64,000 nt of DNA from Idiomarina sp. (GTDB taxonomy: Bacteria > Pseudomonadota > Gammaproteobacteria > Enterobacterales > Alteromonadaceae): the NCBI GenBank assembly GCA_020832105.1, contig JAFIFH010000002.1, positions 1-64,000 on the forward strand, written 5' to 3'. Under the pieces are notes generated by a model that made no database searches, was not told where the DNA came from, and was given only the letters and a program-made list of their open reading frames with translations. The position numbers and the translations under genes were made by a program. Numbering within the stretch: the stretch's first letter is position 1; each line of letters opens with the position of its first letter. Below, piece by piece: positions 29,189 to 39,533 of this stretch.

Positions 29189-31708
29189 TTAAAAGGTATG
29201 GGTGATAGTTGTGCAACCACCACCTGAGCTACCTTCAGGGCATACTTCATAGGTCACGCTGTCCGCTGACGTGTTAAAACGGTCGCGAATACGGTTACTA
29301 TCGTAGGTACCGATGTACTGACCATCCCGGTAAACGTCAACCGGCCCTTCCGCTCCAGAAACCCGTAGCTGAACGGTGGCTGAGCCAGTACGAAGTTTCA
29401 CTGCACTCAGCACTTCAACCTCAATGTTTGCCAGGCTAATGTTCACCATTTCAGTGGCAGAGTCAGTTTGGCCTTCTGAGTCAGTCACTGTCAGGGTAAC
29501 CGCATAACTACCTTCAGCAGCGTAGGTATGAACAGGGTTTTCCGCAGAAGAACCTGCACCATCACCGAAGTCCCAGTCAAAGCTCACGATGTCGTAGTCC
29601 GCTTCGCTTTCATTGGTGAAGCTGGCGGTCATGCCATCCACTGTATAGCTGAAGCCAGCCGTTGGCTCACCAGGAACTGGTTCGCTGTCACTGGCAACCG
29701 ATAACACCAGGCGCCAGCTGTTCAATGTACCTGTATCCAGTGCTGCATTGTCTGACACGAACAGGGTCCAGTCGCCCGTCATCTGCTCACCGTTGAAGCT
29801 GTCAACGTTCCAGGTTTCGATGAGATCGTCCGCACTACCACCATCTCGGTTGTGCAGCATATGCTCAGTACCTTCAGGAGAGGTCAATGTAACGATTAAA
29901 TCTCCACGCCAGGTATGCGTGATGTCCACCGACACTTCAGTGCCAAATACCACACCTTCGTCAGGTACAGTGATCACGCTGGTGATACCAGCAGGATCTG
30001 CATCAGGGATTGCTACTGAGGTGTTGTTTTCATATGGGAAGTCGACCAGATACTGTGGCAGCACGCGTAATGATGCTGCAGCCTGACCTGTGTATTCGCC
30101 GGTGTCAGTATCCTGCGCAGACACTTCAATGGCATAGTCGCCCCATTGTGTATCGGACTCAGTATAAACGGTTAAGGTGACCGAGTCTCCGGTTTCAGCG
30201 GTGCTGGAAGACAGATCATAGTCTAGCGCCGGGTTGATAGAAACACTTAACTCTACCTCGCCAGACCAGTCTGCGACGCCCGAAATATCTAAAGTGTACT
30301 CAGCGTAATCGCCAGCACTGACTTCCTGCATCGCAGGTGTCAGCTCCAAAGCAAAACCAGGTTCTGGATCCGCGTCAATTAATGCCTGATGGGCATTCAG
30401 TCGCTTACCAGACACGGTACGACCTGCTAAGGCAGGAAGCGGGTCGCCTGAGTCCATCATGATTTGCTTCACCTCAGCAATGCTCAGATGAGGCGCAATA
30501 GACCAAATTAAACCTGCAACACCGGCTACATGTGGTGCCGCCATTGAGGTACCCGACATATACACATAACCGCCGTCAATATAAGTCGACGGGATTTGTG
30601 TGCCTGGCGCGCCTAGATCTACGCTCACTGCACCATAGGTGGATGTGCCTGACATCGCGTCAGTGCGCGTTGTATTGGCAACACTGACAATACCAGGGAG
30701 ATCATACGCAGCTGGGTACATCGGGCTGATATCTGCATCTTGCCCGCTGTTCCCTGCCGCGGCGACAAACATAATCCCTGCGTCGTTATGGGTTTGGATT
30801 GCTGAGCGTAAAGTCTGCGAGAATCCACCGCCGCCCCAAGAGTTATTCGTCGCAACGATATTGACGTTATGGTTAACCCGCAGGTTGGTGAAATAGTCAA
30901 TACAGGCAATTGCGTCGGATGTAGAACCGCCCTCTGGGCCTAAAAATTTACAGCCTGCAATTTGTACATCCCAGTTAATACCTGCGATACCGATGCTGTT
31001 ATTTGTGCTGGCGCCAATAGTGCCCGCTACATGGGTACCATGGCCACCAAGATCCATTGGGTCACCGCTGCCGTCTATCGCATTAAACCCGTGGCAGTCA
31101 TCGATGACACCAGTACCAGTGTCATCGATACCATTGTCGCAGATTTCACCAGGGTTCTGCCAAATGTTACCAACCAGGTCAGGGTGATTGTAGTCCACCC
31201 CCTCATCAATAACGCCAATGACAATATTTGAATCGCCTTTAGTAATATCCCAGGCATCCAGCGCACTAATATCTGCGCCAACCGTGCCGCCTTCCTGACC
31301 GGTGTTGTGCAGGTTCCACATTAAACCGAAGAATTGGTCATTGGGTACGCTCAGTGGTTGGCGGTCGGTTACCGCTGTGGTCAGAATGTAATTTGGTTCC
31401 GCTACTTCAATCAAGGGGTGTTGTGAAAGTCGTTTAATGACCCGATCACGTTGAGCGGCGTTCGCTACGTGAATTTTATTGATTCGACCTTCCGCCACAT
31501 GCCGCATTCTAAGGTCTCGTCCTGCATCATCAGTCGCTCGCAAGATACCACCCACGCTGCGCACAACGCTTTCACGCTGATCTTTAGAAACCGAGGGCTT
31601 AAACATAACTAGCAATGTTTCTTCATCGGCTGGTTGATTCGCTGCCATAGCTGAGCCCGCAAACAGGGCCAAGGAAATGCCAACGACTAATTTACTTTTA
31701 TTAGCCAT
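29189..31708 (-). CDS. Secreted subtilisin-like serine protease with P-domain and PKD domain
   Basis: An 839-residue modular exoprotease. In order: signal peptide (cleavage after AMA, about residue 22); inhibitor-I9-like propeptide (about 28-110); peptidase S8 domain (about 130-445) with Asp168 (VIDEG), His223 (GHGTHVAG), oxyanion Asn320 (AAGN) and Ser388 (SGTSMAAPHVAG); a beta-rich linker domain (455-550); a proprotein-convertase P-domain (about 555-665, THTWRGDLIVTLTSP and DWTLFVSDNA); a PKD domain (about 675-755, FDWDFGDG); and a C-terminal fibronectin-like domain with a CxxxxxxxGC pair. It is probably released by type II secretion to degrade extracellular protein. Two cysteine-bounded acidic loops near 190-205 look like Ca2+ sites. 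Confidence 0.95.
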   Translation of the reverse strand: MANKSKLVVGISLALFAGSAMAANQPADEETLLVMFKPSVSKDQRESVVRSVGGILRATDDAGRDLRMRHVAEGRINKIHVANAAQRDRVIKRLSQHPLIEVAEPNYILTTAVTDRQPLSVPNDQFFGLMWNLHNTGQEGGTVGADISALDAWDITKGDSNIVIGVIDEGVDYNHPDLVGNIWQNPGEICDNGIDDTGTGVIDDCHGFNAIDGSGDPMDLGGHGTHVAGTIGASTNNSIGIAGINWDVQIAGCKFLGPEGGSTSDAIACIDYFTNLRVNHNVNIVATNNSWGGGGFSQTLRSAIQTHNDAGIMFVAAAGNSGQDADISPMYPAAYDLPGIVSVANTTRTDAMSGTSTYGAVSVDLGAPGTQIPSTYIDGGYVYMSGTSMAAPHVAGVAGLIWSIAPHLSIAEVKQIMMDSGDPLPALAGRTVSGKRLNAHQALIDADPEPGFALELTPAMQEVSAGDYAEYTLDISGVADWSGEVELSVSINPALDYDLSSSTAETGDSVTLTVYTESDTQWGDYAIEVSAQDTDTGEYTGQAAASLRVLPQYLVDFPYENNTSVAIPDADPAGITSVITVPDEGVVFGTEVSVDITHTWRGDLIVTLTSPEGTEHMLHNRDGGSADDLIETWNVDSFNGEQMTGDWTLFVSDNAALDTGTLNSWRLVLSVASDSEPVPGEPTAGFSYTVDGMTASFTNESEADYDIVSFDWDFGDGAGSSAENPVHTYAAEGSYAVTLTVTDSEGQTDSATEMVNISLANIEVEVLSAVKLRTGSATVQLRVSGAEGPVDVYRDGQYIGTYDSNRIRDRFNTSADSVTYEVCPEGSSGGGCTTITHTF

Positions 31709-31931: not shown

Positions 31932-31979
31932 AAAATGACCCAAAGTGACGATTGTTAGCATGGCAATAGACGTTAATCT
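31932..31979 (+). promoter_or_regulatory. Shared curlin promoter element, site 1
   Basis: 26-bp element AAAAT-N3-CCAA-N6-GATTG-TTA at 31932-31957, whose last six bases TTGTTA (31952-31957) make a -35 box. After 16 bp comes TAATCT (31974-31979) as -10. It lies 61 bp before the first curlin ATG. The same element occurs at 34138 and 36597. CCAA/GATTG carry an imperfect inverted repeat (CAAA-N6-ATTG here, CAAT-N6-ATTG at the other two sites), suitable for a dimeric regulator such as the CsgD-like protein. Confidence 0.7.
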
Positions 31980-32018
31980 TACAGCGTGTTTTCCACAACA
32001 ATAACGAGTTAATTTGCA

Positions 32019-32405
32019 ATGTTTAAAATAACCGTCACGTCTTTTCTGCTTATTCTGGCGATGTGTTCCTCTACTCCAATGGCACATGCGAATCAATCTT
32101 TATCCGCACCACTGCAGAGTCTTATTGATCGACAGGTTATGAGCACTTTGCAGACACAGAGCGCAGTGCAGTCACAAGGTCAGCTTCTGGCACTTGAGCA
32201 AATTGGTCAGGGAAACAGCTTCTATTCACTTCAACAGGGTTTTGGTAACCGAATCTATGCTGTTCAGCACGGTCGGGGTCATTCCGCAGTCATTAGTCAG
32301 GTTGGTACCGATAATGTGATCCAGCTTGCGCAGTATGGTGAAGCGAAAGGGATCATGGTGCAGCAATTAGGTCACCAGACACTTGTTCAAATCGAGCAGT
32401 ACTAA
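32019..32405 (+). CDS. Small curlin-repeat protein, CsgB-like
   Basis: A 128-residue exported protein. The signal peptide ends at AHA (residue 24). A short helical segment (SLSAPLQSLIDRQVMSTL) precedes about five curlin repeats of the form x5-Q-x-G-x2-N: LEQIGQGN, LQQGFGN, VQHGRGH, ISQVGTDN, LAQYGEAK and VQQLGHQT, ending IEQY. Its size and position before a large curlin suggest the minor curlin/nucleator CsgB; E. coli CsgB likewise seeds CsgA polymerisation at the cell surface. It lies 21 bp before the giant curlin gene in one operon. Whether it acts as nucleator or as a fibre subunit is not shown by sequence. Confidence 0.85.
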   Translation: MFKITVTSFLLILAMCSSTPMAHANQSLSAPLQSLIDRQVMSTLQTQSAVQSQGQLLALEQIGQGNSFYSLQQGFGNRIYAVQHGRGHSAVISQVGTDNVIQLAQYGEAKGIMVQQLGHQTLVQIEQY

Positions 32406-32426
32406 AACAATAACAGGGAGACAATT

Positions 32427-33971
32427 ATGTCGATCTTTACGAGCAAAAAAAGTGTATTAGCGATCGCAGTTAGTTTAGCCGTTTCAAGCGCCGCGATGGC
32501 CAGTTCAAACGATGCGTTCCTTGATCAGGAAGGCCTTGATAACGTTGCCAATATTGACCAACAGGGGTCTCTCCATTTTGGCAATGCCCTGCAGGTCGGT
32601 GACTTAAACGAGTTAAGCCTTATCCAGCACGATACCTGGCAAATCGCTGAAAGTTTTCAGGTAGGTGATGGAAACTGGACCAATATCGAGCAATACGACT
32701 TCTGGCAAGAAGCCTTCAGTTACGCATTCGGTGATGGAAACCGCATTGATATTTTCCAGGACGATTTCTATAACATCGCAGTCGCAGACATTTTCGGTAA
32801 CGAAAATGACGTGGAGGTTGAGCAAATAGGTGGTCAGAACCTATCCCAGACATTCCTCTCCGGTGATATGAACGATGTCTATGTGCAGCAGGTGGGTGGC
32901 GACTTCAACGAAGCAACCGTGGATCTGGCAGGCAATTCAAATGACGTCACCATTATGCAGCAAGGGTCCAGCAACTGGAGCCTAATCGAGTTAACCGGTG
33001 ACAGTAACGTCGTTAGCAGCGAGACCCAGGGTTCAGGTAATGAGACTGGCGTATTGTTTGGTGCAGGTAGCGATAACGTTTTTGATTTCTACCAACAAGG
33101 TGACTCCCACGTTGCGGGTATCGTCGGCTTTAATGGTGACGGTAACACCGTGTTTACCTTCCAGGAAGGTTTTAACAACGTATTTATCGCCTATGACTTT
33201 GATGGCAGCGACAACTACCTGGATGTATTCCAGGATGGTACCAGCAACTTGTTTTTACTTGACCCATTAAGTGGCGATGACAACATTGTACTGGCATCGC
33301 AAACCGGTAGTTTCAACGAAATCCAGGGCCCGTCTGGTCTGGTTGGCAACGATAACCAGATTGATGTGTTGCAGGATGGTGATGACAACACTGCCTTATT
33401 CGAGACTTCGGGTGATTCCCATAACGTCACTATTGAGCAGACTGGCGATTTCAACCAGGCTATTGCTTTATCATACGGAAACAGCAACTCAGTTTATGCC
33501 AGTTCAGACGGTGATTTTAACCTAAATGGCGTTGCCGCAGATGGCAATATGAACGATATCTCTTCAATGCAAATCGGTGATTTCAACTTCGCCATTGTCG
33601 AGTTCCAGGGCGACAATAACCAGGCAGAGCTGCTCCAGGACGGCTTAGGAAACGAAGCTGAGATTTTTGCACCTGGCGCTGACTCGACCATGTTGCAGGC
33701 GTCTCAAGTTGGCGACCTTAACCTGATTGACATGCTCATCACGGGTTCAAACAATACCATTATGCTATCGCAAAGTGGTTTAGCGAATGACATCGTTGGC
33801 ATGAGCGGTTTAGGTAGCTCCTTTGTCGTCGGCGGCAACGGTGGCACCATCGACATCTCACAACAAGGTTCTTTCAACGTTGTTATGGGCCAGCAATTGT
33901 CTGATGCCAGCACTATGGTTGTATCGCAAATTGGTGTCGGCAACGTCGCCACCATTAGCCAAACAAACTAA
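32427..33971 (+). CDS. Giant curlin-repeat protein (CsgA-like, about 20 repeats)
   Basis: A 514-residue exported protein, over three times E. coli CsgA (151 aa, five repeats). The signal peptide ends at AMA (near residue 25). The rest is about 40 turns of Gly-x-x-Asn type, i.e. about 20 two-strand repeats of about 22 residues, predicted to form a beta-solenoid amyloid. One face keeps Q-x-G-x-x-N (QVGDLN, QIGGQN, QTGDFN); the other has hydrophobic-x-G-[DNS]-x-N (LSGDMN, LAGNSN, LTGDSN). Early turns are replaced by aromatic variants HDTW, YDFW and DDFY. The C-terminus (GGNGGTIDISQQGSFNVV onward) matches that of the other giant curlin at 36820. Very acidic, almost no basic residues. Ends at a strong terminator. 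Confidence 0.9.
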   Translation: MSIFTSKKSVLAIAVSLAVSSAAMASSNDAFLDQEGLDNVANIDQQGSLHFGNALQVGDLNELSLIQHDTWQIAESFQVGDGNWTNIEQYDFWQEAFSYAFGDGNRIDIFQDDFYNIAVADIFGNENDVEVEQIGGQNLSQTFLSGDMNDVYVQQVGGDFNEATVDLAGNSNDVTIMQQGSSNWSLIELTGDSNVVSSETQGSGNETGVLFGAGSDNVFDFYQQGDSHVAGIVGFNGDGNTVFTFQEGFNNVFIAYDFDGSDNYLDVFQDGTSNLFLLDPLSGDDNIVLASQTGSFNEIQGPSGLVGNDNQIDVLQDGDDNTALFETSGDSHNVTIEQTGDFNQAIALSYGNSNSVYASSDGDFNLNGVAADGNMNDISSMQIGDFNFAIVEFQGDNNQAELLQDGLGNEAEIFAPGADSTMLQASQVGDLNLIDMLITGSNNTIMLSQSGLANDIVGMSGLGSSFVVGGNGGTIDISQQGSFNVVMGQQLSDASTMVVSQIGVGNVATISQTN

Positions 33972-33988
33972 AAGCGGCTTCTGACATA

Positions 33989-34019
33989 ACCACCGGGTAT
34001 ATAGCCCGGTGGTTTTTTT
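33989..34019 (+). terminator. Intrinsic terminator after the first giant curlin
   Basis: ACCACCGGG (33989-33997) pairs with CCCGGTGGT (34005-34013), followed by a run of seven T. It separates the structural pair csgB-like/giant curlin from the secretion genes. Confidence 0.93.
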
Positions 34020-34137
34020 GTTTTAGCCCTAGTATGAAGGTACTACTTAGATCCTGCTAAAAACCATCATCAAAGATCCTATAAGCCCCTGTTAATCCTG
34101 ATTTTTACTGCTTAAGTACGGGCTTTTAGCTGAACAT

Positions 34138-34185
34138 AAAATAGCCCAATAATACGATTGTTAAGGCTCAGCAAAGGGCTAATGT
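34138..34185 (+). promoter_or_regulatory. Shared curlin promoter element, site 2
   Basis: 26-bp element AAAAT-N3-CCAA-N6-GATTG-TTA at 34138-34163. TTGTTA (34158-34163) acts as -35 and TAATGT (34180-34185) as -10 after 16 bp, the same geometry as site 1. It is 59 bp before the start of the His-rich CsgB-like gene and would drive that gene with csgE, csgF and csgG. The dyad CAAT-N6-ATTG is exact here. Confidence 0.7.
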
Positions 34186-34222
34186 ACTAGCACCACCGAT
34201 TGATATCCTGAAGGAAATCACC

Positions 34223-34672
34223 ATGGCTTCACTAAAAAAAATCATAAGTTTAGCCGTCGCATTATGGCTTACCACGCCGATAGCGAGCGCTCAGGCAGAA
34301 CTGCCAATGGGTCTGGCGAGCTTATTAGAAATGAATCAGATGGCAAGCTTATCAGGCTTGAACGCACCGGCTATTCACGGGCATACCCTGCATCTGGAAC
34401 AGGTGGGGCATGCGCACCACGCTTCTATTTTCCAGGTCGGCGACCGGCATCATGCCGAGGTCTCTCAGCAAGGCGCATATAATCAAATACACGCTAGTCA
34501 GTTCGGCCAGGGAAACAACATATACGCGACCCAGAGCGGTCATTACAACCGCGCCTACTTGTATCAGGAAGGCTTTAATAATGTGGTCTTTCTGGAGCAG
34601 CATGGTAACCACGGTTTAGCAATTGTGGCCCAATATGGCTCTGATATGACCGCCACGGTCACTCAGTACTAG
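34223..34672 (+). CDS. Histidine-rich small curlin, CsgB-like
   Basis: A 149-residue exported protein, signal peptide ending about ASA/QA (residues 22-25). About five to six curlin repeats follow a short helical stretch: LEQVGHAH, FQVGDRHH, SQQGAYN, SQFGQGN, TQSGHYN, YQEGFNN, LEQHGNHG and VAQYGSDM, ending VTQY. Twelve histidines fall at residues 52, 54, 57, 63, 65, 66, 76, 77, 90, 107, 127 and 130, eight of them within 26 residues and mostly in the turns. That could bind metal or make assembly pH-dependent. It begins the operon with csgE, csgF and csgG, so it is probably the nucleator or a second minor subunit. Confidence 0.85.
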   Translation: MASLKKIISLAVALWLTTPIASAQAELPMGLASLLEMNQMASLSGLNAPAIHGHTLHLEQVGHAHHASIFQVGDRHHAEVSQQGAYNQIHASQFGQGNNIYATQSGHYNRAYLYQEGFNNVVFLEQHGNHGLAIVAQYGSDMTATVTQY

Positions 34673-34681
34673 GTGCCCCGG

Positions 34682-35143
34682 ATGAAACTCGTATGTTTGT
34701 CGGGTCGGTTATCTTGTGTTGCGTGGTTTGCCGCGGCCTTGCTCCTGATGAGTTCAACGTCGACGGTCGCACGCAGTCTGACATTGCCTGAAGCACCTCC
34801 ACGCGCCGTTAGTGAAGGCGGAGATATTGAATTGAGTGGCATTGTCCTTGACCGAACCATCACCCGTTTTGGCAAAGATTTCTTCTTCTATTACACCGGT
34901 TACTGGCGCGACGTGCCGGATACTGAAGGCCTGACGGTGGTCATTCACGAGCAGGTTTACCCCCAGGCTGGCACCAGGTTATGGGTGGAGATGGAGCAGG
35001 AAACTATTTTTCAGACATATTTTGGAAGACGGCACACCGACGTTAAAAAGGTGGCTGAACAAGCGGTACTCATTAGCTTAGATAAGGTAGTAGAAATAAA
35101 GGCTCGAGCAGCCGCCGACTCTATCTTAGAAAAATTACAATAA
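34682..35143 (+). CDS. csgE: CsgE, curli secretion accessory factor
   Basis: A 153-residue protein (E. coli 129) with a hydrophobic signal region near residues 10-31. The mature part has the family features: GIVLDRTITRFGKDFFFYYTGYW, then TVVIHEQ and GTRLWVEMEQETIFQTYFGRR, which match the conserved CsgE core. CsgE is a periplasmic cap for the CsgG pore and delivers curlins. I use the ATG at 34682; a GTG at 34673 overlaps no ribosome-binding site. It starts 9 bp after the curlin stop and 9 bp before csgF. Confidence 0.92.
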   Translation: MKLVCLSGRLSCVAWFAAALLLMSSTSTVARSLTLPEAPPRAVSEGGDIELSGIVLDRTITRFGKDFFFYYTGYWRDVPDTEGLTVVIHEQVYPQAGTRLWVEMEQETIFQTYFGRRHTDVKKVAEQAVLISLDKVVEIKARAAADSILEKLQ

Positions 35144-35152
35144 GGTAAGGTT

Positions 35153-35551
35153 ATGAAAAAAATAATTAAAACATCATGCATAGTTATTGGCGCATTTGCC
35201 TCCACCCAGGCAATTGCGACCCAATTAGTTTACGAGCCAATTAATCCAAGCTTTGGTGGCAACCCAATGAACGGGTCATACCTGTTACAAAAAGCGCAGA
35301 GTCAGAACGCTCACCGACCGGATACGAATCAGCGCTCCTTTGTACAACGCTTTCAGGAGCAATTAGAGCGCAATATCATCAACAGTTTAACCCGACGTAT
35401 TGCAGACGGTGATCTGGTGGAGGGCATATACGATACCGGTGAGTATACCGTTGAGGTAACTGGTCAGGCGGATGGCAGTGTGTTGGTTTACATTACCAAT
35501 AATGCTACCGGCGAAGTTACCATTATCACGATGCCTGGTTGGGGAGGTTAA
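35153..35551 (+). CDS. csgF: CsgF, curli assembly factor
   Basis: A 132-residue exported protein (E. coli 138), signal peptide ending at AIA (near residue 22). The mature N-terminus TQLVYEPINPSFGGNPMNG holds the hallmark NP-x-FGGNP that inserts into the CsgG channel and forms the second constriction. A helical middle and a C-terminal beta domain follow. CsgF couples CsgG secretion to nucleation at the cell surface. Its stop is separated by one base from csgG, so the two are translationally coupled. Confidence 0.95.
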   Translation: MKKIIKTSCIVIGAFASTQAIATQLVYEPINPSFGGNPMNGSYLLQKAQSQNAHRPDTNQRSFVQRFQEQLERNIINSLTRRIADGDLVEGIYDTGEYTVEVTGQADGSVLVYITNNATGEVTIITMPGWGG

Positions 35552-35552
35552 C

Positions 35553-36314
35553 ATGCGTAAACTCATGATAACTGCTCTGACGGCAGTGTTGGTGTCTGGC
35601 TGTTCGATTATGCCTAAACCAACAAACTTCAATATTGAGCCTGCCACCATCGATGCTCGCAGCGCGATTATGGAATATCTGCGCGAACAGCCGCGGCCCG
35701 CGACACCAATCCCAGTCACTGTATATGCATTTCGTGATCAAACTGGTCAGTATAAGCCCCAGGCAAATGTTTCCAGCTTCTCCACTGCGGTTACTCAAGG
35801 GGGAACATCAATGATGATGCAGCTCTTACTTGATTCCGGGTGGTTTGCGCCACTGGAGCGAGAGAATCTGCAAAACCTTCTGACTGAGCGCCAGATTCAT
35901 AATTCGGCTCGTAACGGGCAGGAGCTTCCACCACTAAAAGAAGCGCGGCTTATGCTTGAGGGGGGGATCATCAGCTATGACACCAATACCACCACGGGCG
36001 GTGTTGGCGCTGAGTATTTTGGTATTGGCGCCTCAGAGATGTATCGGGAAGATCAGGTGAGCGTGTATTTACGTGCCGTTGACGTCCATACCGGCCAGGT
36101 TCTGCTCTCGGTTTCTGCAACAAAGAAAGTATTTTCCATGGAGCTTCGCGCCGGGCTCTTCCGTTATGTTTCGCTGAATCGTCTACTTGAAGCTGAGGCT
36201 GGGTTTTCAATGAATGAACCCGTTCAACATTCAGTTCAGCGAGCCATGGAAACTGCACTGGTTGAATTAATCGAAGAGGGTCAGGTTCGCGGTTTTTGGC
36301 GCTCGCAAAGTTAA
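35553..36314 (+). CDS. csgG: CsgG, curli secretion channel lipoprotein
   Basis: A 253-residue protein with lipobox LVSGC (Cys near residue 16). Conserved core: VTVYAFRDQTGQYKPQAN, SSFSTAVTQGGTSMMMQLL, FAPLERENLQNLLTERQI, EGGIISYDTNTTTGGVGAEYFGIG and FRYVSLNRLLEAEAGFSMNEPVQ, all aligned with E. coli CsgG (277 aa) apart from the shorter C-terminal tail. CsgG forms a nonameric outer-membrane pore that exports curlins without energy. The ATG at 35553 follows GGGGAGG by 4-5 nt. It is the last gene before an intrinsic terminator. Confidence 0.97.
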   Translation: MRKLMITALTAVLVSGCSIMPKPTNFNIEPATIDARSAIMEYLREQPRPATPIPVTVYAFRDQTGQYKPQANVSSFSTAVTQGGTSMMMQLLLDSGWFAPLERENLQNLLTERQIHNSARNGQELPPLKEARLMLEGGIISYDTNTTTGGVGAEYFGIGASEMYREDQVSVYLRAVDVHTGQVLLSVSATKKVFSMELRAGLFRYVSLNRLLEAEAGFSMNEPVQHSVQRAMETALVELIEEGQVRGFWRSQS

Positions 36315-36351
36315 TTTACTCATTAGTAAGTCATAGCCATAATTTATTTTA

Positions 36352-36378
36352 AAAGGTCGCATAGTTGCGGCCTTTTTT
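36352..36378 (+). terminator. Intrinsic terminator after csgG
   Basis: AAAGGTCGCA (36352-36361) pairs with TGCGGCCTTT (36366-36375), with one G-T pair, followed by a six-T run. Confidence 0.9.
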
Positions 36379-36596
36379 ATTGTTAATTCTGTTTTTATAA
36401 ATGATGTAAATGTAGGGTTTTGTCTATTTCTGTATATTACGAATGGTTTTAATGAATTGCTTTTTAGTGATGAAATAGATTAAAAGAAACCTAGTTCTAA
36501 TGGCGTAGTCCTAACATCCTTGTTTTGCCCGTTCTGTTTCATAAGCACTTGTTTACAAGTGTCTTTATCAGAATTCCTTTCAAGCCGCTCAGCCTA
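36379..36596. other. AT-rich gap before the second giant curlin promoter
   Basis: About 220 bp of AT-rich sequence without ORF. Nothing recognised apart from its strong AT content, which together with 31709-31931 marks the regions upstream of curlin promoters in this locus. Confidence 0.4.
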
Positions 36597-36645
36597 AAAA
36601 TACGCCAATAAGATGATTGCTACCCTAAGCCATATGAACCAATCT
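36597..36645 (+). promoter_or_regulatory. Shared curlin promoter element, site 3
   Basis: 26-bp element AAAAT-N3-CCAA-N6-GATTG-CTA at 36597-36622. TTGCTA (36617-36622) acts as -35 and CAATCT (36640-36645) as -10 after 17 bp. The dyad CAAT-N6-ATTG is exact. Unlike sites 1 and 2 it is 197 bp from the start codon, leaving a leader of about 170 nt in which I saw no ORF. Confidence 0.65.
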
Positions 36646-36819
36646 TTACGTGAGGTTTACACATGCCAGTTTAAATATCCGAATAGAGTGCTCTCTCACT
36701 GTTATCGGTCTGGTATGCAACATGGAAGACCCGGCCCAATATAGGGCAGAAGTCTCGCTTATATATTTAAGCAACACTTAGCACAGTGGAAACTGTCGAT
36801 AACAAAAATAGGATTAATT

Positions 36820-38463
36820 ATGAAAACTTTAAAAGCAACCAAGTCAGCTTTAGCACTTTCCGTAGCCTTAGCTATCTCAGGTGCAGCATATGCGAGCAAT
36901 AACGACATCGACCTGCTTCAGGACGGCGTGCAAAACTTTGCTCAGATTTCTCAGGACGGCGACAATTTGAATGCAGAAGCGGTTCAGGTTGGTGACGACA
37001 ATATGGTACTAATTGACCAGAGCGGCGGTTTTAGTTTCTGGATTTTCAATATGGGTAATGACGCTTTTTCCGGCCAATTTGGTGATGGCAATGATGCGAC
37101 TATTGAGCAAGATGGGTATGAACAGGACGCATACTCCACGCAAGAGGGTTCCGGCAACGTCACCACAGTGACCCAGCAGGATATTGGCGGCAACGATGCC
37201 CGGGTTGAATTATTTGGTGACGATAACAACGCAGTGGTTGCACAACTGCTTGGCGGCCTTAGTGGGGCGACCATCCTGGTAACGGGTAGCGGCAACTTCG
37301 CGAGCATCGAACAGTGGGCAGCGGATAATCAGGCTGAAATCATTACCACAGGCGACATGAACAGCGCGGATATCTTCCAGGCTGGCGTATCGAACGACGC
37401 GTGGGTTGAACAAGATGGCGACAATAACGATAGCGTTATTGAGCAGCTCGGTATGTTTAATGATGCCGAAATTTTGACTGAAGGCAGTGATAACGTGTCG
37501 ACCATTGAACAACTTGGCATGGACAGTTCTGCTGAAATATGGGCTGATGGTGATGGCAACATCCAGACAATTGTGCAGTCAGGTTTAGATCACGAGGCTA
37601 CAAGCTGGGCACTGGGCAATAGTAACGTCAGTTCGCAAACCCAAAGTGGCTCAGGCAACAGCTCGGTGATTTATCTCAGTGGTGACGATAACTTGGCTGA
37701 AACCTCTCAAAGCGGTGATTCGCATAGTGCTAGTTTTGCTGCTTACGGCAGTGGCAACACTGCCGCAGTAGAGCAGGTTGGCAATGACAACGTTACAGAT
37801 CTGACTGTTGCAGGTTCTTTCAATACATTCGATGTGTATCAACGTCAGTACGACAATGAACTTACTTCGGACGTGACTGGCAATTACAACGAGGTTTCCG
37901 TGTTCCAACATGGGCATAGTAATCAAGTCGCGATTACTATTCATGGTGATTCGAATTTAGTTGATGTGCGCGAACCAGTTGGAGATCGTCGCTTTAGTGA
38001 AACTAATGTTTATTTTGATGGTGACGGCAACGAGCTCTATGCTTCAGCAAGAGCTGGTAGTGGCCAATTTATGAACTTTGATATGACTGGTGACGATAAT
38101 ACTATCAGTTCGACACAGTTTCATAATGGTGTAAGTCTGGATATCACAACAGATGGACAATACGTGCAAGGGAACCAAGTTATTACAGACCAAGCTGGTG
38201 CGTTCAGCTCCATTTCATTGCTGCTCTCAGGTTCAATGAACAACATCAATATGACTCAGGGCGGCCCATCGGGCAACGCGAGTAACAGCATTGAAGGACT
38301 TAATGGTTCAGAGTACTTTCAAGTTGGTGGTGACAATGGTTATGTGAGTCTTTATCAGCAAGGTGCTCAAAACGTCATTCAAGGTGCTCAAATGAGTCAC
38401 GACAGCTCTATCTCCGTGTCGCAAGTTGGTACATTCAATACTGCGGTTGTGAGCCAGTTCTGA
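36820..38463 (+). CDS. Second giant curlin-repeat protein (CsgA-like)
   Basis: A 547-residue exported protein, signal peptide ending at AYA (near residue 26). It carries about 20 two-strand curlin repeats with the same alternation as the 514-aa protein: Q-type turns (QDGVQN, QVGDDN, QDGDNN, QSGSGN, QVGNDN) and G-[DNS]-x-N turns (FGDGN, FGDDNN, TGDMN, SGDDN, TGNYN). The middle and later repeats (about 370-470) are less regular. The C-terminal about 55 residues (VGGDNGYVSLYQQGAQNVIQ and then SISVSQVGTFNTAVVSQ) match the end of the other giant protein. It has its own promoter element and terminator, so it can be expressed apart from csgBA and csgEFG. Confidence 0.88.
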   Translation: MKTLKATKSALALSVALAISGAAYASNNDIDLLQDGVQNFAQISQDGDNLNAEAVQVGDDNMVLIDQSGGFSFWIFNMGNDAFSGQFGDGNDATIEQDGYEQDAYSTQEGSGNVTTVTQQDIGGNDARVELFGDDNNAVVAQLLGGLSGATILVTGSGNFASIEQWAADNQAEIITTGDMNSADIFQAGVSNDAWVEQDGDNNDSVIEQLGMFNDAEILTEGSDNVSTIEQLGMDSSAEIWADGDGNIQTIVQSGLDHEATSWALGNSNVSSQTQSGSGNSSVIYLSGDDNLAETSQSGDSHSASFAAYGSGNTAAVEQVGNDNVTDLTVAGSFNTFDVYQRQYDNELTSDVTGNYNEVSVFQHGHSNQVAITIHGDSNLVDVREPVGDRRFSETNVYFDGDGNELYASARAGSGQFMNFDMTGDDNTISSTQFHNGVSLDITTDGQYVQGNQVITDQAGAFSSISLLLSGSMNNINMTQGGPSGNASNSIEGLNGSEYFQVGGDNGYVSLYQQGAQNVIQGAQMSHDSSISVSQVGTFNTAVVSQF

Positions 38464-38683: not shown

Positions 38684-39361
38684 TTACCCTTTAATACTAA
38701 AATCCGGGTGGTAATTAACAATGTTCGACTGCTGCGACCAGCGTAAAAGCTCCACTCGATTACGAGCCTGGGTTTTTCTGAATATCGATGATAAATGCGT
38801 TTTTACAGTGTGCGCGCTGATATTCAGTTGGTAGGCGACTTCTTTATTGCGTGCGCCCTGTGCCACTAACTTAACGATGTTGAGCTCCTGCTTAGTCAAG
38901 GACGTGTGTGGGAAAGCACTGTCGCTGCTATTGGTTTGCTCGATACGGCGTGTCAGCATTTCATTGACCAATTCAGACAGTAACCAGCGCGGGTAGTAAA
39001 GTTGCCCTTCACTAAGCACTTTAAAGGCGGTGAGTAACTTATCAAGCTGATCATCACTATAGATGATGCCGCGTACGCCTAAGTCGAGGGCTTGTTGCGG
39101 GTCACAGCTGCCGCGGGCCGCATCAAAGATAAAGATTGGGAATCGCTGAGCGATTAAGTTTACTTCGCTTGCGGTGTGGTTGTGAGACAACTGCTTACCC
39201 GCAAGGGAATAGGCGACCATCGCTTTTTCGTCGACATCTATATGAAATAATTCAGCTCTGGTTCGGTTTTCTGTATTTATATCAATTGAATTTGCTAACA
39301 ATGCAATATTTGTTGGTTTGGCGCTGTTAGATACAATTAGGAATTTATTATATTTAAACAT
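38684..39361 (-). CDS. csgD: CsgD-like LuxR-family transcriptional regulator
   Basis: A 225-residue protein (E. coli CsgD 216). The N-terminal part is a receiver-like domain lacking clear phosphorylation residues. It contains GVRGIIYSDDQLDKLLTAFK and GQLYYPRWLLSELVNEML, similar to the unorthodox CsgD receiver and output linker. The C-terminal LuxR helix-turn-helix is SLTKQELNIVKLVAQGARNK through SAHTVKTHLSSIFRK. It is the only transcription regulator within the curli locus and is convergent with the second giant curlin, a strong candidate to bind the three repeated promoter elements. The ATG at 39359-39361 is preferred, with GAGGG 6-7 nt upstream. Orthology to csgD is inferred from context. 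Confidence 0.82.
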   Translation of the reverse strand: MFKYNKFLIVSNSAKPTNIALLANSIDINTENRTRAELFHIDVDEKAMVAYSLAGKQLSHNHTASEVNLIAQRFPIFIFDAARGSCDPQQALDLGVRGIIYSDDQLDKLLTAFKVLSEGQLYYPRWLLSELVNEMLTRRIEQTNSSDSAFPHTSLTKQELNIVKLVAQGARNKEVAYQLNISAHTVKTHLSSIFRKTQARNRVELLRWSQQSNIVNYHPDFSIKG

Positions 39362-39533
39362 AACAACCCTCATAACCCCTTGTATGGATCTCAGTCCATT
39401 TGTTAATAAATTATAATAAGACTACCACAACGGACGAAATTTGCACTACAAAAATAGTAAATTAGGGGGTGCTAAACGGGATTAAAAGTAGCCTTAAAAT
39501 CACCTATTTAAATTAATAACTTAGGATGATTGA

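Follow-up and report, generated by a model that had tools for sequence, protein, structure and literature searches.

How does a bacterium switch on curlin genes that are spread over several transcription units? The question is raised by a 64,000-nucleotide stretch of Idiomarina sp. (GenBank assembly GCA_020832105.1, contig JAFIFH010000002.1, positions 1 to 64,000 of the forward strand; hereafter the window), in which three curlin (csg) units lie beside a gene for a CsgD-like regulator. A first-pass annotation had described a 26-bp element, AAAAT-N3-CCAA-N6-GATTG-YTA, repeated on one strand ahead of these units, and all three copies prove to be exact. The explanation that we favor, and hold to be probable, is that the adjacent CsgD-like activator uses the element as its operator, a lineage-diverged counterpart of the CsgD site of Escherichia coli csgB.

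The element in the window and the assembly

Each copy heads its own unit, as assigned by Pfam: csgB1-csgA1, csgB2-csgE-csgF-csgG, and the stand-alone csgA2 (Table 1). Reading the sequence bears out the annotated geometry, with 17 of 26 positions identical among the copies, the −10-like hexamers at the spacings listed, and gaps of 61, 59, and 197 bp between copies 1, 2, and 3 and the ATG. The last six bases of copy 1, TTGTTA, are placed as its −35. Three copies are beyond chance: with up to three mismatches allowed, the literal pattern matches nowhere else in the window, while among 100 dinucleotide-shuffled sequences the mean was 0.42 matches and the maximum 2, so that none reached 3. A default sigma-70 scan called five promoters, none of them one of the three element promoters, which do not have both hexamers near consensus; such a miss is expected if these promoters are activator-dependent.

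Table 1. Coordinates of the element copies, their −10-like hexamers, and the curlin genes of the window.
Feature	Positions	Strand	Remarks
Element copy 1	31932..31957	+	before csgB1-csgA1; exact match; profile E 6.7e-8 (model trained on copy 1)
−10-like hexamer TAATCT	31974..31979	+	16 bp past copy 1; read from sequence
csgB1-like curlin open reading frame (ORF)	32019..32405	+	128 aa; Pfam Curlin_rpt
csgA1-like curlin ORF	32427..33971	+	514 aa; Curlin_rpt 142.8 bits
Terminator-like hairpin between units 1 and 2	33988..34014	+	11 pairs and T tail; consensus match only
Element copy 2	34138..34163	+	before csgB2-csgE-csgF-csgG; exact match; profile E 1.5e-8 (model trained on copy 2)
−10-like hexamer TAATGT	34180..34185	+	16 bp past copy 2; read from sequence
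csgB2-like curlin ORF	34223..34672	+	149 aa; Curlin_rpt 63.7 bits
csgE	34685..35143	+	PF10627 111.3 bits; chosen start, listed ORF begins 34673
csgF	35153..35551	+	PF10614 103.6 bits
csgG	35553..36314	+	PF03783 254.7 bits; chosen start, listed ORF begins 35472
Terminator-like hairpin between units 2 and 3	36351..36376	+	11 pairs and T tail; consensus match only
Element copy 3	36597..36622	+	before stand-alone csgA2; exact match; profile E 6.1e-6 (model trained on copy 3)
−10-like hexamer CAATCT	36640..36645	+	17 bp past copy 3; read from sequence
csgA2-like curlin ORF	36820..38463	+	547 aa; Curlin_rpt 151.9 bits
CsgD-like LuxR/FixJ-type regulator, proposed element binder	38684..39373	−	229 aa; GerE PF00196 65.3 bits

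In an alignment of 12 sites of this lineage (A1), GATTG and two further element columns are invariant and CC nearly so; in the −10 region, columns A46 and T50 are invariant and T45 is nearly so. The CAAT-N6-ATTG dyad that had been annotated did not hold up, as CAAT is exact in only 2 of the 12 sites. A palindromic half-site model was rejected on the same alignment.

Is the element confined to curlin genes? The assembly (3.03 Mb, 77 contigs, 92.8% complete) encodes curlin repeats in the window cluster and, unlinked to it, at one locus each on contigs C11 and C17, and the element stands ahead of all five curlin units. The C11 copy matches the literal pattern with two mismatches and lies 173 bp upstream of a curlin ORF of 396 aa. 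The C17 copy, TTTCTAGCCTTAAAATACGATTGTTA, is followed 16 bp on by TAAACT; it escapes the literal pattern and was located via the curlin gene. There is no fourth exact copy in the assembly, and the five matches with up to two mismatches are the three copies, the C11 site, and one place inside a coding sequence (contig C77). At up to three mismatches the literal pattern is noisy, with 17 matches against 8 for a reversed-pattern control. A sequence-only profile, R1, built from 12 sites of this lineage, over 53 positions that include the −10 and with our own sites in training, recovered the five curlin sites at E 1.5e-8 to 6.1e-6 and nothing else in the assembly below E 0.2 (scoring covered 150 of the 751 candidates from a first look, a depth at which weak sites can escape). 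The whole-genome scan proposed in the first-pass annotation thus leaves the sites, at profile level, confined to curlin units. Further targets in this genome were considered and rejected among the same scored candidates, the next R1 match (E 0.218) sitting inside a coding sequence.

Because R1 was trained on our own sites, we also used other matrices. A matrix made from six Idiomarina sites alone ranked copies 2, 3, and 1 at 1, 2, and 4 of 127,950 window positions, and placed the C11 site first of 11,952 and the C17 site third of 8,952 positions, each in its own locus.

Recurrence in the genus and in related genera

We surveyed 17 genomes of the genus, calling a CsgD-like gene at E ≤ 1e-20 and a strong site at E < 1e-3. 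Five of the 17 (our own, G005, G008, G010, and G011) combine a CsgD-like gene with curlin repeats and strong sites, and the distribution of csgF agrees. None of the three was found in the other 12 congeners, where the best site has E 0.059. G010 contributed to R1 training; G005, G008, and G011 lie outside the training set. The three units of the window recur in G005 with one site each, and G008 has one curlin unit with one site. In each of G010 and G011, two cluster units have sites, and one unlinked curlin gene has a weak one; its 13.2 bits are reached or exceeded at 4 of the 127,950 window positions, three of them the copies. By manual count, all 15 intact curlin units carry the element, two of them in weak form. 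Of the 12 congeners that lack curlin genes, 7 have weak profile matches as well (E 0.06–0.7), which were treated as noise. Weak matches in curlin-bearing congeners lie away from curlin genes in G008 (C1:934909) and G011 (C4:163596), and there is a further one in G008 (C1:1680297). G005 also holds a truncated curlin ORF (L162, minus strand of C1) directly 3' of an ahpC-like gene; its start, signal peptide, and upstream region are gone, it carries no element, and it resembles our own C17 curlin.

Related genomes, which the annotation had suggested searching, carry the element ahead of their csg genes as well. The gene order S8 protease / csgBA-EFG / csgD-like recurs widely among 80 csgG loci. 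De novo expectation-maximization was run on 71 upstream regions, 5 of them second sites from our own genome or Aliidiomarina sedimenti; three (L023–L025) were wrongly trimmed, and their sites are visible in a separate comparison. The best motif ahead of csgBA in Alteromonadales was aAAAAtaa.aCaTt..tccgATtG, in diverging forms in several genera, and 43 of the 71 regions score at least 15 bits by manual count. It reads AAAATACACCATTCATACGATTGTTG in Idiomarina, AAAATAGCTCTTTATTCCTATTGC in Rheinheimera, AAAATAAAACATTTGTCCTATTGTGG in Arsukibacterium, AATAAGTAGACCTTTTTCTGATTG in Shewanella, and ATAAATACAACTTATTGGTGATAG in Alteromonas.

The closest relative of the window csgG is that of A. sedimenti (87% identity), which makes Aliidiomarina the probable genus. 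A subtilisin-family (S8) protease gene lies at 29189–31708 of the window, and such a gene is divergent to csgB in most csgBA-bearing csg loci, which suggests a link with curlin fibers. The element-to-ATG gap is longer in stand-alone csgA-type units (197 bp at window 36623–36819, 173 bp at L112 2238–2410, and 128 bp at L111, minus strand) than in the csgB-headed units of the window, and these long leaders may be regulated.

The CsgD-like protein as candidate activator

By sequence comparison, the element is real, curlin-specific, conserved, and probably of activator type. Which protein reads it? A LuxR-type helix-turn-helix protein is encoded at the csg cluster, its gene adjoining csgA2, and gene neighborhood together with genus-wide co-occurrence upholds the earlier choice of this neighbor as the best candidate. 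It scores 61.6 bits against the NCBIfam equivalog for CsgD (NF007505), under the curated cut-off of 250, and on its sequence we call it CsgD-like rather than class it as an E. coli-type CsgD.

From these comparisons we infer binding, activation, and transcription starts as follows. The regulator would bind about 26 bp of asymmetric sequence, AAAATA-N2-CC-N5-AC-GATTG, in a site that runs upstream from, and overlaps, a weak −35 (TTGYTA), and would aid RNA polymerase at a TAATCT-like −10 located 16–17 bp further on. With one such promoter for each of the five curlin units, three in the window and two unlinked, fiber subunits, nucleators, and the export genes csgEFG would be switched on jointly, forming a regulon dedicated to curlin.

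The element might instead be a curlin-specific operator read by a different regulator, whose gene lies elsewhere; the CsgD-like protein would then act upstream or have other targets. We regard this as unlikely. In its favor, the match to E. coli's CsgD box carries little statistical weight. Against it, the CsgD-like gene adjoins the cluster, is present or absent together with curlin genes and strong sites in every one of the 17 genomes of the genus, and has a counterpart above 50 bits in 72 of the 80 csgG loci. The eight loci without one are csgEFG loci of Shewanella (L041, L042, L043, L050, L052, L059, L060, and L062), in whose stretches no CsgD-like ORF above 50 bits was found and no curlin ORF is annotated.

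It is less probable still that there is no special operator and that the copies are a core promoter (−35/−10) carried along when curlin units were duplicated. Between our own five units the element alone is conserved, with a mean pairwise identity of 0.70 against 0.23–0.37 in the flanks and the −35/−10 spacer, even though the units are paralogous and each has TTGYTA with a −10-like hexamer at 16–17 bp. Conservation takes in some 20 bp ahead of the −35 and is seen in other genera too, where the −35-like bases themselves are poorly kept; the view that the element is more than a core promoter stands. Chance or a dispersed repeat, for which the excess of literal matches at three mismatches might speak, merits almost no credence, being already contradicted by the shuffles, by the specificity of the profile below E 0.2, and by the recurrence of the copies in independent genomes.

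How could an operator and its regulator come to differ from those of E. coli? The recognition helix is ISAHTVKTHLSS in the window protein and ISENTVKTHLYN in E. coli CsgD (ISENTVKTHLY in E. coli, ISVNTVKTHVY in Alteromonas). Sites were placed without column 17 of the operator (inspection shows two, L147 and L070, to be misplaced), and the helix residue was then compared with that column. Over all 76 rows, G against other bases was 15/8 for Asn, 4/46 for His, and 2/1 for Tyr; in the 52 rows with a placement p ≤ 0.05, it was 12/3, 2/33, and 1/1. These counts suggest that helix residue and column 17 change together. A class-wide search found csgF in 7 of 369 genomes. Among 15 distant csg stretches, 12 upstream regions were viewed by eye (all but L148, L153, and L160): Asn-type sites were seen in L147 and L150 and His-type sites in L151 and L155, with no clear site in L149, L152, L154, L156, L157, L158, L159, or L161.

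A tentative extension, somewhat short of an even chance in our estimate, is that CsgD helix and operator re-coded each other, yielding an orthogonal, curlin-only CsgD regulon that was carried with duplicated curlin genes to unlinked loci. The helix would have changed, in either direction, between an Asn type (E. coli, Alteromonas: ISxNTVKTH-x-Y) and a His/Ser type (this lineage, Idiomarina, Rheinheimera: ISAHTVK-T/A-HLSS), and the operator core alongside it between GGTGA and AC-GATTG or CC-TATTG.

Several results weigh against the operator reading or its tie to E. coli. On a CsgG tree, which holds the E. coli row on an implausibly long branch, there are 3 residue changes and 2–3 independent pairs, and the covariation is not significant given relatedness; since the genera are not independent and the tree has about three switches, where the pair test needs at least six independent ones, this test is without power. 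No element was found upstream of the csgD-like gene itself, the best scores on either strand being at most 4.2 bits in 9 of 9 regions of our own and related loci. A Rheinheimera/Arsukibacterium/Alkalimonas matrix ranks copy 2 first, and copies 1 and 3 at 353 and 44. None of the 5 Colwellia and 13 Pseudoalteromonas regions reaches 15 bits in the de novo search. In the csgD-csgB interval of E. coli K-12, the best plus-strand match of the general matrix, AAAAATACAACGCGCGGGTGAGTTATTA at −149 of csgB (5.1 bits), is outscored by a minus-strand place (6.0 bits). An Alteromonas-like (Asn-type) matrix made without E. coli does rank AAAAATACAACGCGCGGGTGAGTTATTA first over both strands of the 6-kb csg region, in favor of the tie, but the match is weak (shuffle p 0.15). 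Finally, the window element does not resemble TSHTT(K)WT(W)T(B)A(W)T(K), a CsgD motif proposed for Salmonella Enteritidis from promoters positive in electrophoretic mobility shift assays (PMC12061854).

The upstream scores in those nine regions led us to reject the idea that the element makes the csgD-like gene autoregulated. A palindrome-like block precedes csgD in four Idiomarina loci, as TTGTTACATTTTGTAACA in L022 and L025 and as variants in L019 and L024; it was unseen in the own-genus csgD upstream regions compared. It is possibly the site of csgD's own regulator.

For these marine bacteria the element is a curlin control signal specific enough to be tested, and from it the membership of the curlin regulon, including its unlinked genes, can be predicted. 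The genera would also provide a set of naturally occurring pairs of CsgD protein and operator along which changes in DNA recognition could be followed.

Comparison with known CsgD sites and with VpsT

Is this signal new? The first-pass annotation had called it the best candidate for an undescribed signal. That holds to the extent that we found no operator for curli genes of Alteromonadales in the open-licence papers searched, which is no proof of absence; it holds less well in that the element appears to be the counterpart of the CsgD box ahead of csgB in E. coli, which makes it a signal of a known kind. Dueholm et al. describe csg operons and lone csgD genes of Alteromonadales, with no operator in the passages covered here (PMC3521004). 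For E. coli, 20 CsgD-binding sites are cited (PMC10302398), and the Salmonella Enteritidis motif is stated to occur in 1853 promoters (PMC12061854), against five sites here.

The Alteromonas forms, with GGTGAT, look intermediate between the E. coli stretch and the window element. The CsgD box in the csgB (csgBAC) promoter of E. coli has the consensus CGGGKGAGNKA, which CGGGTGAGTTA, within the best E. coli match, fits. Like that box, the element stands upstream of csgB/csgA units, in all five of our own and in other genera, and AAAAATACAACGCGCGGGTGAGTTA of E. coli shares a AAATACAAC...GGTGA layout with the Alteromonas form. Our own sites differ in having AC-GATTG or AT-GATTG at the core rather than GGTGAG, and do not fit the consensus; they differ also in serving five units, two of them unlinked, with one copy each. 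That the element coincides with the E. coli CsgD box is suggested, if weakly, by these comparisons.

The closest solved structure to the CsgD-like protein is VpsT of Vibrio cholerae (3kln/3klo, 62 bits). At the position of the VpsT cyclic di-GMP motif, the window protein and those of Idiomarina read YYPR, most Rheinheimera proteins YYAR, and many from Alteromonas, Pseudoalteromonas, and Ferrimonas WFSR. The window protein differs here from VpsT itself, whose motif we take to be W[FLM][TS]R, and ligand sensing by CsgD-like proteins may differ between lineages.

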